NCBI GenBank assembly: GCA_003141895.1
Contig: PLNT01000016.1
Span: 124,001-188,000, forward strand
Reading direction: 5' to 3'
DNA: 64,000 bases
DNA from: Bacteroidales bacterium
Lineage (GTDB): Bacteria > Bacteroidota > Bacteroidia > Bacteroidales > VadinHA17
Shown piece by piece: positions 41,710-48,625 of this stretch (within the stretch, counting starts at the first letter, position 1; every line of letters begins with the position of its first letter). The notes under the pieces are model-generated. The model did not search any database and was not told the origin of the DNA. It saw only the letters and a program-made list of their open reading frames with translations. The translations under genes and the position numbers were made by a program.

Positions 41710-42543
41710 ATGGACGATAATTTAAATCTATTAAAAATACGACTTAAAGAATATAAAAGTGCCGTAATAGCGTTTTCGGGGGGAGTAGATAGTACATTCC
41801 TTGCCCGTATTGCAAAAGATGTTTTTGGAGACAAACTGTTACTGATAACAGCCACATCAAGTACATATCCGTTTTACGAGCTTGAAGAAGCAAAATCACT
41901 AGCTGAGTTGCTTGGAATTAAACATAAAATAATCGTTTCCGAAGAAATAGATATACCGGGGTATGCAGATAATCCTCCCGACAGATGTTATTATTGCAAG
42001 AGCGAGTTATTTGGAAAGATAAAACATATCGCATCTTTAGAAGGTTATGAAGCAGTGCTGGATGGCAGTAATGCTGACGATCTAAACGACTTTCGTCCCG
42101 GAATGAGAGCGAAGCTGGAAAAAGGAGTCATCTCTCCTCTCGCAGATTCAGGTTTTACAAAAAACGAGATAAGACGTTTATCTGCAATTCTTAATCTGCC
42201 AACAGCTACAAAACAATCTTATGCCTGTCTCGCATCAAGATTTCCTTATGGAGAAAAGATCACTAAAATTAAACTCGACAGGCTTGCAACGGCTGAATTC
42301 GAAGTTAGAAAGCTTGGATTTACTCAATTCCGAATCAGGAGTCATGAAAATCTGGCAAGATTAGAGTTTATCCCTTCTGAAATGGATAAGGCGTGGGAAA
42401 CAAAAGATATGCTCACAGCAATTTGTAAAAATTCTGGTTTTACCTTTGTCACAATTGATCTCAAAGGTTACAGAACCGGTTCAATGAATGAGGTACTACC
42501 GGAATCGGTAAAAGCAAGTTTTCTGAAAACTGATAAAAGATAA
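41710..42543 (+). CDS. larE: LarE, ATP-dependent sulfur transferase for the nickel-pincer cofactor
   Basis: A 277-residue PP-loop ATPase (AFSGGVDSTF, residues 21-30) of the LarE family. LarE converts pyridinium dicarboxylate to the dithio form that holds nickel in LarA. Cys173 in SYACLASRFPYG corresponds to the sacrificial Cys176 of Lactobacillus LarE. Cys93 and Cys96 (CYYCKSELF) add a CxxC, the three-cysteine pattern of LarE proteins that carry a [4Fe-4S] cluster and may use an external sulfur source. The likely client is the LarA-like protein at 5391. It precedes the ThiF/rhodanese gene by 19 bases. Confidence 0.92.
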   Translation: MDDNLNLLKIRLKEYKSAVIAFSGGVDSTFLARIAKDVFGDKLLLITATSSTYPFYELEEAKSLAELLGIKHKIIVSEEIDIPGYADNPPDRCYYCKSELFGKIKHIASLEGYEAVLDGSNADDLNDFRPGMRAKLEKGVISPLADSGFTKNEIRRLSAILNLPTATKQSYACLASRFPYGEKITKIKLDRLATAEFEVRKLGFTQFRIRSHENLARLEFIPSEMDKAWETKDMLTAICKNSGFTFVTIDLKGYRTGSMNEVLPESVKASFLKTDKR

Positions 42544-43711: not shown

Positions 43712-44629
43712 ATGCCACTGAACATTCCCGATAAACTACCTGCGATTGAATTCCTTCAGAAGGAGAATATTTTCGTAATGGATACCTCACAGGCTTCACA
43801 TCAGGATATTCGCCCGCTTAAAATTGCAGTTCTGAATCTGATGCCTATTAAAATAACAACTGAGATAGACCTTGTCAGACTCTTATCTAATTCACCCTTG
43901 CAGATTGAGCTCGATTTTATAAGTCTGAGTTCTCATGTTTCAAAAAATACGCCAAAAGAGCATATGCTGGCATTCTACAAAGATTTCAATCTTATTATAC
44001 ATTATAAGTATGACGGACTTATAATTACAGGAGCACCGGTAGAACAAATGCCTTTTGAGGAAGTAGCTTACTGGAAAGAACTTACTGAAATATTAAACTG
44101 GGCAAAAAGCAATGTTACTTCCTCAATATTTATTTGTTGGGGTGCACAGGCAGCTCTTTATCATTATTATGGCATACCAAAGTACCCGCTCGGAAAAAAA
44201 ATGTTTGGAGTTTTTAAACATACAAAAGCTGACGCAACCAATCCGATTCTAAGAGGATTTGATGATGTTTTTTACGTTCCTCACAGTCGTCATACAGAAA
44301 TAAAAAGGGAAGATATATTGAAAGTTTCTGAATTGACAATTCTCTCGGAGTCTGAAGAATCAGGGGTATATATGGTCGCATCACGCAATGGCCGTGAATT
44401 TTTTCTTACCGGACATTCGGAGTATTCTCCTGAAACTCTTGATATAGAATATAAAAGGGATATGGCAAAAAATCTTCCTGTTGAAATGCCAAAGAATTAT
44501 TATTTAAATGATGATCCTGAAAATCCTCCGGTTGTACTATGGCGCTCACAGGCTAATATGCTTTTTGTAAACTGGCTCAACTATTATGTATATCAGAAAA
44601 CACCTTACAATATTGAAACTATCGTGTAA
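43712..44629 (+). CDS. metA: Homoserine O-acyltransferase (predicted acetyltransferase)
   Basis: A 305-residue MetA-family enzyme, normal length, acting in methionine synthesis. The class I glutamine-amidotransferase-like fold carries the nucleophile Cys in FICWGAQAALYH near residue 142 and the His/Glu pair in FLTGHSEYSPETL. Residue 111 is Glu (TGAPVEQMPFEEVAYW). In this family Glu at 111 goes with acetyl-CoA and Gly with succinyl-CoA, so O-acetylhomoserine is the predicted product. The start ATG 43712 follows a 78-base gap with no visible SAM riboswitch. Confidence 0.94.
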   Translation: MPLNIPDKLPAIEFLQKENIFVMDTSQASHQDIRPLKIAVLNLMPIKITTEIDLVRLLSNSPLQIELDFISLSSHVSKNTPKEHMLAFYKDFNLIIHYKYDGLIITGAPVEQMPFEEVAYWKELTEILNWAKSNVTSSIFICWGAQAALYHYYGIPKYPLGKKMFGVFKHTKADATNPILRGFDDVFYVPHSRHTEIKREDILKVSELTILSESEESGVYMVASRNGREFFLTGHSEYSPETLDIEYKRDMAKNLPVEMPKNYYLNDDPENPPVVLWRSQANMLFVNWLNYYVYQKTPYNIETIV

Positions 44630-44776
44630 CCAATATCATCTTATTCATCAGTTTTCACGAGTTAAACTTGCATTTCAGAAAACATTTTCTGCCGACATTT
44701 GTTGATATAGAATTGACATTAAATAAGAAATTTAATAAATTGCGTTATATTGTAATTCTTATTAACCATTCAAATC

Positions 44777-44854
44777 ATGCAGCATTCAAAAATCTATAAT
44801 ATACTTACTTGTAACAATATCCTCTGTTGTTACTGCTGCTGTTGCATCTGTTAA
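44777..44854 (+). CDS. Candidate cysteine-rich leader peptide upstream of cysE
   Basis: A 25-codon ORF with an ATG at 44777 and a TAA at 44852. It contains eight Cys codons, seven of them in the last nine (CCYCCCCIC followed by the stop). It lies 121 bases upstream of the cysE start in a 346-base gap that holds no other gene. A run of codons for the pathway's end product in a short ORF before its biosynthetic operon is the hallmark of ribosome-mediated attenuation. A weak stem can pair part of the Cys-codon run (44843-44849) with 44882-44888. No strong terminator hairpin is visible, so the mechanism is unclear. An alternative is a decayed small gene whose Ala/Val-rich frame reads as Cys out of frame. 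Confidence 0.5.
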   Translation: MQHSKIYNILTCNNILCCYCCCCIC

Positions 44855-44975
44855 AAACTTTAATTATAAGTATTTGCTTTGTAGATGTGTGTTCAAACAA
44901 TTAATTCACAACCCTTTTGCTATATAAGTGTTTTACAAATTAACATTTAACAATTAAAAATTAAAAAATCTCCAG

Positions 44976-45749
44976 ATGTCAGAATTCACTATCCCTGATA
45001 AAAAAGATGTTGAAAAGACGATCAAGTCTTTGTTCAGACTTTTGTTTCCGGCCACAAATTCCTACTCAGACACCGAGATCGAGAATAGTCTCGATCATTC
45101 ACGAGTTCTTTTGCTGGGATTATTGATTGGTCTGACCGATGAAAAAGAAAAGACTGCAAATCAGTTTCTCGAAAATCTTGACAAGATAAAAGATACACTT
45201 CTTAAGGATGCACAATTTATTCTGGAATCTGACCCTGCAGCTACAAGATTAATCGAAGTTATCGCTATTTATCCCGGCTTCTTTGCAATATTCTGCTACC
45301 GGCTTGCAAATTCACTTGCAAAATTATCAGTTCCCCTCCTGCCAAGAATGATAACTGAATATTCTCATAAGGTTACGGGAATTGATATTCATCCTCATGC
45401 CGAAATTGGGTGTCCTTTTGCGATAGACCACGGCACAGGTATTGTTATTGGCGAAACAACAAAAATCGGAAACAATGTTAAGGTTTATCAGGGAGTTACT
45501 CTTGGTGCTCTTAGTGTCGACAAAAGCAAAGCCTCAAAAAAGAGGCATCCCACAATTGAAGATAATGTAGTTCTATACTCAGGCTGCACAATTCTTGGAG
45601 GTGAAACTGTTGTCGGGAGAAACAGTATTATCGGTGGAAATGTATGGCTCACTGAGAGTATAGCCCCTTTTTCAGTGGTTTATCACAAGAGCGAAATAAT
45701 TGTCAGAAACCAGAATGGGTTTCAGGAACCTATAAACTTTATTATCTGA
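44976..45749 (+). CDS. cysE: Serine O-acetyltransferase
   Basis: A 257-residue enzyme that acetylates serine to make O-acetylserine for cysteine synthesis. The N-terminal helical domain runs to about residue 130. It is followed by the left-handed beta-helix with hexapeptide repeats: HPHAEIGCPFAIDHGTGIVIGETTKIG and VYQGVTLGAL. The catalytic His/Asp are in AIDHGTG. The C-terminal NQNGFQEPINFII could occupy CysK's active site. It precedes cysK by 26 bases, and a Cys-codon-rich short ORF lies upstream. Confidence 0.93.
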   Translation: MSEFTIPDKKDVEKTIKSLFRLLFPATNSYSDTEIENSLDHSRVLLLGLLIGLTDEKEKTANQFLENLDKIKDTLLKDAQFILESDPAATRLIEVIAIYPGFFAIFCYRLANSLAKLSVPLLPRMITEYSHKVTGIDIHPHAEIGCPFAIDHGTGIVIGETTKIGNNVKVYQGVTLGALSVDKSKASKKRHPTIEDNVVLYSGCTILGGETVVGRNSIIGGNVWLTESIAPFSVVYHKSEIIVRNQNGFQEPINFII

Positions 45750-45775: not shown

Positions 45776-46687
45776 ATGAAACTAAATTCAATTCTCGAAT
45801 CAATCGGTAACACGCCTCATTTGAAAATCAACAGGCTTTTCGACCCTGACTATTCAGTATGGGTAAAACTGGAAAGATCAAACCCCGGGGCAAGCATTAA
45901 GGACCGCATTGCATTATCTATGATAGAGGACGCTGAAAAAAAAGGCATATTAAAACCCGGTGGCGTAATTATTGAACCGACATCCGGCAATACAGGCATT
46001 GGTCTTGCAATAGTATCAGCTGTTAAAAGGTACAGGCTTATACTGGTAATGCCTGAATCTTTTTCGTTAGAAAGAAGAAAAATTATGAGTTCGTACGGTG
46101 CAGAATTTGTACTTACTCCCCGCGAAAAAGGTATGAAAGGTGCAATTGAACGCGCCAGAGAATTAACAGCAGAAACTCCGGATTCATGGATGCCAATGCA
46201 GTTCGACAATCCAGCCAATACGGAAATTCATAGGACCGCCACAGCTCAGGAAATCCTTAAAGATTTTCCTGATGGTCTTGATTATCTGATTTCAGGTGTA
46301 GGCACAGGTGGCCATTTAACTGGCTGTGCCGAGGTTTTAAAGAAAGCGTTTCCCAAGTTGAAAGTGTATGCTGTTGAACCGGAATTATCTCCGGTACTGA
46401 GTGGTGGTTCCCCTGCTCCTCATCCGTTGCAGGGAATAGGCGCCGGGTTTGTTCCTTCAATTTTAAATACAAAAATACTTGACGGGATAATTAAAGTAAC
46501 AAAAGAAGAAGCATTCAATTTTACAAGAAGGGCTGCCAAAGAAGAAGGACTGTTTGTCGGAATATCTTCAGGAGCATCACTGGCAGCTGTAAATCAAAAG
46601 CTGAAGGAATTTCCCAAAGGCTCAAGAATTCTGACATTTAGTTACGATACAGGAGAAAGATATTTGTCAATAGAGGGGTTATTCTGA
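45776..46687 (+). CDS. cysK: Cysteine synthase A (O-acetylserine sulfhydrylase)
   Basis: A 303-residue PLP enzyme that forms cysteine from O-acetylserine and sulfide. The Schiff-base lysine is in [12 protein letters not shown] (about residue 41), and the phosphate and substrate loop is [22 protein letters not shown] binds the PLP phosphate, and [11 protein letters not shown] completes the family signature. It is slightly short but complete. With cysE it forms the terminal step for the sulfide produced from the APS pathway at 27646-30798. Confidence 0.96.
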
Positions 46688-48406: not shown

Positions 48407-48625
48407 ATGAAAAAGTTATTATTAATTATTGCAGTTGTTTCTCTTTCAGTATTAACCTTTGGTCAGACGAAACAAACAACAACAACAACAACAAAAACGA
48501 AAGCTGATACCACAAAAGTAATGCATAAAAAAGCTGGAACAGCTACTGACAAAGCAGCTACCAAAACAGTTGCTCCTAAGGACATGAACAAAGCAAAAAC
48601 AGACACTACCAAAGTGAAGAAGTAG
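48407..48625 (+). CDS. Small secreted Lys/Thr-rich protein
   Basis: A 72-residue protein with a clear signal peptide (KKLLLIIAVVSLSVLTFGQ). The mature part is low in complexity and made of Thr, Lys and Ala (QTTTTTTKTKADTTK, AKTDTTKVKK). The ADTTK/KTDTTK phrase is repeated. It has its own -7 box and a strong terminator, so it is a real transcription unit. No known domain is present. A basic exported polypeptide might bind polysaccharide, nucleic acid or the envelope. Confidence 0.75.
   Translation: MKKLLLIIAVVSLSVLTFGQTKQTTTTTTKTKADTTKVMHKKAGTATDKAATKTVAPKDMNKAKTDTTKVKK

Follow-up and report, generated by a model that had tools for sequence, protein, structure and literature searches.

Control of cysE-cysK by cysteine leader peptides is, as a class, very probably at work in Bacteroidota, and a short ORF rich in Cys codons just upstream of cysE in a Bacteroidales genome is rather likely to be a working Cys leader. 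The DNA analysed, called here the window, is a stretch of 64,000 nucleotides (positions 124001-188000 of contig 13) from a 4.0 Mb host genome in 46 contigs. We infer that the window ORF is best read as a genuine, lineage-specific, terminator-less Cys leader that would act via Rho or via translation; it is probably a cysteine sensor, despite lacking the usual switch-off hairpin. Along the + strand the locus reads larE, a ThiF/MoeB-type gene, metA, a 346-base gap, cysE and cysK, with the following features.

43712..44629, + strand: metA, homoserine O-acetyltransferase type, the upstream neighbour of the cysE leader on the same strand.
44777..44854, + strand: Cys-codon leader ORF, MQHSKIYNILTCNNILCCYCCCCIC*, examined by composition, shuffles, genome pattern search and class enrichment.
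44825..44851, + strand: presumed sensing codons, 7 Cys in 9, from codon composition.
44976..45749, + strand: cysE, serine O-acetyltransferase (TIGR01172 at 153 bits and the cysK neighbour).
45776..46687, + strand: cysK, cysteine synthase A (NCBIfam TIGR01139 at 403 bits, cut-off 351).

The assignment of cysE, scored below the TIGR01172 cut-off of 211, also leans on the adjoining cysK. The C-terminus of the ThiF/MoeB-type gene matches MoeZ, a rhodanese.

An earlier, sequence-only reading of this DNA had described a 25-codon ORF with eight Cys codons, seven of them among the last nine, ending 121 bases before cysE, and these values proved correct when re-read from the sequence. The ORF extends from the ATG at 44777 to the TAA at 44852-44854, with Cys at codons 12, 17, 18, 20-23 and 25, and the 121 bases separate it from the cysE ATG (44976). 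It is translatable as judged by its sequence, and 8 of its 25 codons specify the end product of the cysE-cysK genes that it precedes. Its Cys run is not plausibly due to chance. When the 64 kb window was shuffled 100 times with its dinucleotides preserved, none of the six frames contained 7 or more Cys within 9 codons. A genome-wide search for the pattern TGY TGY NNN (TGY)x4 found just the leader ORF and one TGY-repeat tract. The simpler (TGY)x4, searched in any frame over the 4.0 Mb, gave 47 overlapping matches, merged by hand to 35 places that were all inspected; at 33 of these the run is overlain by a different frame that stays open for 118 aa or more, and the only two exceptions are the leader ORF and the antisense of a small Thr-rich gene of the window (48407-48625). 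The latter would encode a signal-peptide-like protein and reads on its antisense strand as six consecutive Cys codons, a source of false positives in searches for Cys runs.

The sequence-only reading had named lack of conservation in relatives as a refutation, and by that measure the result within the genus goes against the ORF. None of 21 same-genus regions upstream of cysE, nor one added later, contains at least 4 Cys in 7 codons; the leader is missing from these 22 regions, and among them there is no orthologue in which its sensing codons could be conserved. In L019, which belongs to these 21, a frame with 3 or more Cys in 5 codons stops approximately 350 nt upstream and, by position, within the neighbouring gene. 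Comparison of the intergenic DNA with 117 genomes of the family (6 candidates scored per genome) returned only short matches of 20-47 bases, in 31 other genomes, many of them in its A/T-rich end. A 37-base match of L150 to the leader end lies inside a 447-aa frame of another genome and was taken as chance.

As far as the sampled data reach, the window leader is lineage-specific. We weighed its place between metA and cysE as a recent gain or arrangement, since Cys leaders are scattered over the phylum in unrelated sequence forms. This genome alone has metA next to cysE among 29 metA loci (from 28 of 58 genus genomes); beside the other 28 loci, in 27 further genomes, cysE is absent within flanks of at most 1.5 kb on each side, some of them cut by contig ends. 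Other genes precede cysE in the same-genus relatives, in several of these a gene that reads by eye as metY/metB-like.

The more general claim that Cys leaders precede cysE-cysK was strongly borne out for the phylum, the part of it that failed being the conservation of this particular ORF in its genus. With 4 or more Cys in 7 codons as the threshold, Cys-run sORFs were found upstream of cysE on the strand of the gene in 22 of 256 regions versus 3 on the opposite strand. Both counts were already reached in the first 212 regions, to which the shuffles are confined and for which 50 shuffled sets gave a mean of 0.52 and a maximum of 2. The hits in these 212 regions fall on the own genome (1/1), the order (1/6), named genomes (10/76) and the phylum draw (10/108), with 0/21 in the genus; one of the 22, in L029, probably falls within the upstream gene. 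At the named loci, 10 of 73 cysE genes have a Cys-run sORF ahead of them; among 247 other genes 2 do, and one of those sORFs leads a Flavobacterium sulfatase-cysE-cysK operon. Runs of Leu (51 versus a mean of 35 and a maximum of 44) and of Ser (24 versus 13 and 21) also exceed the shuffles, far less than those of Cys (22 versus 0.5), and the Ser enrichment is equally high on the opposite strand (28).

It should be noted how these regions were assembled. The 212 are distinct regions, near-identical ones having been merged, from the own genome, the genus, the order, named genomes and a phylum draw; L002-L111 were picked by cysE similarity and not randomly, and some of the named ones are probably of the same genus. 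The phylum draw matched in 145 of 296 genomes at 149 places, and 109 loci (29 + 80) entered the first count. The set added later comprised 8 other listed loci and 38 of the 39 further phylum-draw places (family f42 accounts for 36 of the 39, a single same-order genome for two and a contig edge for one). Two of these 46 loci had too little upstream DNA, and the remaining 44 regions were searched both at the enrichment threshold and at that used for the terminator counts (at least 3 Cys in 5): neither strand of any of them showed 4 or more in 7, two had at least 3 in 5, and no strict terminator was present. The cysE starts given by coordinates and by BLAST agree in 25 of the 30 loci having both. 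A 50-aa query meant for a codon-level comparison in Flavobacterium matched only 2 of 41 genomes.

An intrinsic terminator stands behind the sORF in 15 of 37 Cys-sORF regions versus 8 of 219 regions without such an sORF (256 in all). Before the added regions, the counts were 15 of 35 (at least 3 Cys in 5) versus 8 of 177 others, with a Fisher p of 2e-8 under a terminator rule drawn up after examples had been seen. Among the 8 terminator regions without a called Cys sORF, L056 and L195 clearly have Cys leaders and L028 perhaps does; these were missed by the start and length rules, and the contrast is therefore understated. At 19 loci with both leader and terminator (near-copies L203 and L329 excluded), we looked at pairing of the 5' arm of the terminator near the leader end, and this antiterminator gave p ≤0.05 versus shuffles in 14 of the 19; the combined p of 3e-14 is too small because related species are among the 19. 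Its first paired base lies in an interval that reaches from 36 nt ahead of the end of the leader stop codon to 5 nt past it, and its partners vary among species with complementarity kept. At L039 (Chitinophagaceae bacterium DXS), for example, one reads ATG..TGT TGT TGT TGC..TAA, AGAGAGAA, CCCTTCTCTC..GAGAAGGG, a run of T's, then cysE. In family f36 (of G330), which we take to be Spirosomaceae and which holds Runella-like leaders, 28 loci were newly fetched, one of them without upstream DNA; a strict terminator was found at 4, all behind a CCC or CCCC leader, and at none of 23.

Attenuators of the trp/his type combine a leader rich in the end-product amino acid, an antiterminator near the leader end and a terminator before the gene. 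This layout is matched in the 19 Bacteroidota loci examined. Leaders with end-product codons, terminator and antiterminator do occur together at cysE loci other than that of the window, whose copy, by contrast, has no terminator and hence no antiterminator. Their anatomy suggests that the terminator-type leaders would act as classical attenuators. In several Chitinophagaceae, in Runella and in part of Flavobacterium, the cut-off would be an intrinsic terminator opposed by an antiterminator near the leader end; many of the antiterminator segments would be covered by a ribosome at the stop codon, and many would stay accessible while the ribosome is stalled in the Cys run. Upstream of the leaders of L039, L040, L050, L055 and L056, the motif TAGTCYAC is shared and in most of the five is followed by a TAnnTTTG-like box approximately 25 nt before the leader ATG, a pair that could represent promoter plus operator of terminator-type leaders.

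Other Bacteroidota leaders have no terminator. The Flavobacterium leaders ending ..YNTFCYMCSCC* before cysE (L110, L237 and L238) have no strict terminator behind them, nor does L312, of the same type with one Cys changed to Gly. The ending ..FCYMCSCC* also precedes a sulfatase-cysE-cysK operon at L089:901-987 and L106:957-1043 (sulfatase read from the translation; both outside the terminator scan). When folded, these Flavobacterium ..FCYMCSCC* leaders form a hairpin at the Cys codons that in most cases is no stronger than in shuffles. In a Melioribacteraceae-like family, a Cys-bearing frame precedes cysE in all 9 genomes of the phylum draw with a cysE match, and none has a strict terminator behind it. 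The runs in 6 of the 9 are of the types CCCC, CCC, CCCC..TCC, CICCCN and CCCCN; the other frames (L189, L200 and L206) end in TCIC*, with two Cys codons only, 60-157 nt before the first in-frame cysE ATG, a start codon being established for one. Within the window's own order, 2 of 9 added regions carry a candidate Cys leader, again with no terminator: L384 (MLKRIVKHMFCCCMASQTGLCFDLYD, ..HMFCCCMAS.., run CCC, 60 nt before cysE) and L387 (MRNLFRGQCICCHAVGRQG, ..QCICCHAV.., run CICC, 81 nt before cysE). These two frames are possibly kin to the window's leader, which ends CCCCIC* and belongs with the terminator-less Cys leaders of Bacteroidota.

At the window copy, two scans, one of them with relaxed limits, detected no intrinsic terminator between the leader and cysE, which upholds the earlier remark that a strong terminator hairpin is absent. 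Attenuation by an intrinsic terminator is excluded at this copy, there being no terminator for an antiterminator to compete with. The weak stem earlier noticed between part of the Cys codons and 44882-44888 is present as a 5-6 bp match, and a stronger stem was found inside the ORF. Two RNA features were retained.

44811..44833, + strand: hairpin in the leader ORF, GTAACAATA / TGTTGTTAC, fold versus shuffles p 0.018 and 0.033.
44845..44850, + strand: CATCTG at the leader end, complementary to CAGATG at 44973-44978, which contains the cysE start codon.

In the hairpin, 44811-44819 pairs with 44825-44833 and the stem is extended by 44779-44784 with 44834-44839, giving -14.5 kcal/mol; the first codons of the Cys run fall within it. 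A longer A/T-rich pairing of the leader end with the cysE start reaches -12.7 kcal/mol (p 0.009 in a single post hoc test), and the CATCTG/CAGATG pairing could possibly sequester the cysE start from translation. Sequestration was rejected as a feature of the class, results from 16 other leaders without a strict terminator being inconsistent (median p 0.29, combined p 0.016). The fold of the whole leader is unremarkable (z -0.58), and Rfam gave no match up to E 1 within 44600-45100. The best Bacteroidota-type promoter before the leader scores 8/10, the commonest value in shuffles, and a TTGACA-17-TAAATT site at 44713-44741 is one of 4 found versus 3.4 expected.

We propose that the translated leader peptide (uORF) would sense charged tRNA-Cys for the cysE-cysK operon. 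With cysteine short, the ribosome would stall in the Cys run, the downstream RNA or termination state would change and cysE-cysK would be turned on; with cysteine ample, the ribosome would reach the stop codon and cysE-cysK expression would be cut. As the terminator is absent in the window, the output would most likely be Rho-dependent termination in the untranslated 121-nt gap, or masking and unmasking of the cysE start by the 3' end of the leader.

The region between the leader and cysE holds one further element.

44905..44937, no strand assigned: degenerate copy of a palindrome, TGTACAACACTT-N9/10-AAGTGTTGTACA, with 20/24 arm positions, from scoring against the genus palindrome.

This copy stands 38 nt before cysE. 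The genus palindrome measures 33-34 bases and ends 28-39 nt before the cysE start codon in some relatives. Of 18 regions scored, 6 reach at least 20/24 (window 20, L012 21, L004 23, and 24 in L006, L009 and L010) and 12 score only 13-17; in mononucleotide shuffles with a 9-base spacing, a score of 18 is reached in 0.05%. A palindrome before cysE was seen in L342 too. Five of the 58 genus genomes (5/58) each hold a single copy of the exact core, in all five just before cysE as located by tblastn, and the right arm overlaps a TAnnTTT(G/A) box in L004, L006, L010 and L012. We take such boxes to be the -7 elements of Bacteroidota; the -7-like box of the window, TACAAATT, departs from TAnnTTTG. The palindrome is likely to be the ancestral cysE operator/promoter, resembling an operator dedicated to this operon and overlapping the -7 region. 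Because its degenerate copy lies between the leader and cysE, some cysE transcripts may begin downstream of the leader; either a leader above the old promoter would govern nothing but read-through, or transcription would now begin at a newer site above the leader.

The palindrome gives substance to one rival explanation, in which the leader ORF is a vestige or bystander, the inherited palindromic operator/promoter at 44905-44937 and a DNA-binding regulator drive cysE-cysK, and the leader touches at most metA read-through. The constant location of the exact core before cysE, the scores seldom approached by shuffles and the overlap of the right arm with the box in four relatives all favour it. 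In the window, however, the arms are degenerate and the -7-like box is altered, so that the promoter may be the decayed part, and a bystander with such a Cys run would be a remarkable coincidence; we hold this explanation to be unlikely. Still less likely, and in our judgement improbable, is the view that the Cys run arose by chance or is read out of frame, the +1 frame (..KSIIYLLVTISSVVTAAVASVKN..) being the remnant of a small signal-peptide protein; the sequence-only reading had raised a decayed gene in that frame. The frame is open over 51 codons and, judged by eye, resembles a signal peptide, and the 33 of 35 (TGY)x4 places lying under long frames mean that Cys runs in this genome are usually out-of-frame views. 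However, no ATG, GTG or TTG stands in that frame ahead of the hydrophobic stretch, the frame (44766-44918) has no Pfam match and a best genus match of E 0.02 at 41% identity, the 117 family genomes gave short matches and no other related DNA, and the class enrichment is tied to the strand of the gene and far strongest for Cys.

A broader picture may be drawn, which we offer tentatively as plausible and somewhat short of probable: Bacteroidota would share an unnamed cysteine attenuator of cysE-cysK that has been re-invented repeatedly and whose output takes two forms, through an intrinsic terminator or without one. The window would then be a recent gain in a lineage that otherwise relies on the palindromic operator, RNA control replacing or being layered on control by a transcription factor. 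The window, a terminator-less case beside a decaying operator, is a place where such a switch of regulatory mode might be caught. The full cysE-cysK attenuators offer a mechanism open to direct test in named isolates, such as Runella limosa DSM 17973 (L045), Chitinophagaceae bacterium DXS (L039), Flavobacterium jejuense (L059) and F. luminosum (L085).

Cys-run leader peptides have been described, in the accessible part of PMC1262725, before cys operons of Mycobacterium and Propionibacterium acnes and before cbs of Bifidobacterium longum; they have no conserved terminator, and Rho was proposed by the authors. Like these, the window has a short ORF with a Cys run near its stop, cysteine genes next to it and no terminator. 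Unlike them, it belongs to Bacteroidota and precedes cysE-cysK, and many of its Bacteroidota relatives have terminator and antiterminator. Mycobacterial polycysteine leaderless sORFs are reported to be cysteine-responsive attenuators of downstream genes (Canestrari et al. 2020, as cited in a portion of PMC13236596). A polycysteine sORF as a proposed cysteine-responsive attenuator is common to both cases; the mycobacterial ones, according to the same portion, lie on leaderless mRNAs and are described as acting by translation attenuation, whereas the window is known from sequence alone. The uORFC-8-2 motif before cysS in Rhodobacterales comprises a uORF with tandem Cys codons, two stems and a terminator-like U run (available part of PMC8632094). 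Its logic is that of the terminator-bearing Bacteroidota leaders, and it differs in controlling a cysteinyl-tRNA synthetase, in having two Cys codons and in belonging to alpha-proteobacteria. Within Bacteroidota, a transcriptome of Flavobacterium psychrophilum gave clues of leader-peptide attenuation before amino-acid operons, cysteine biosynthesis not being named in the accessible part (PMC9723704), and a map of B. thetaiotaomicron listed sORFs reminiscent of attenuation leaders, with no cysteine genes mentioned in the part available (PMC7366714). No description of Cys leaders in Bacteroidota was found in the literature searched, whose coverage leaves out most subscription papers and of which some sources were accessible only in part; classic attenuation before cysE-cysK is apparently undescribed in this phylum, where control of cysteine synthesis is poorly documented in the literature found.

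Finally, larE (41710-42543 of the window) is close to cysE in two same-genus relatives as well: it lies directly upstream of cysE in L007, as read by eye, and was found by tblastn, in two pieces, in L341. It may for this reason be an old neighbour of cysE-cysK.
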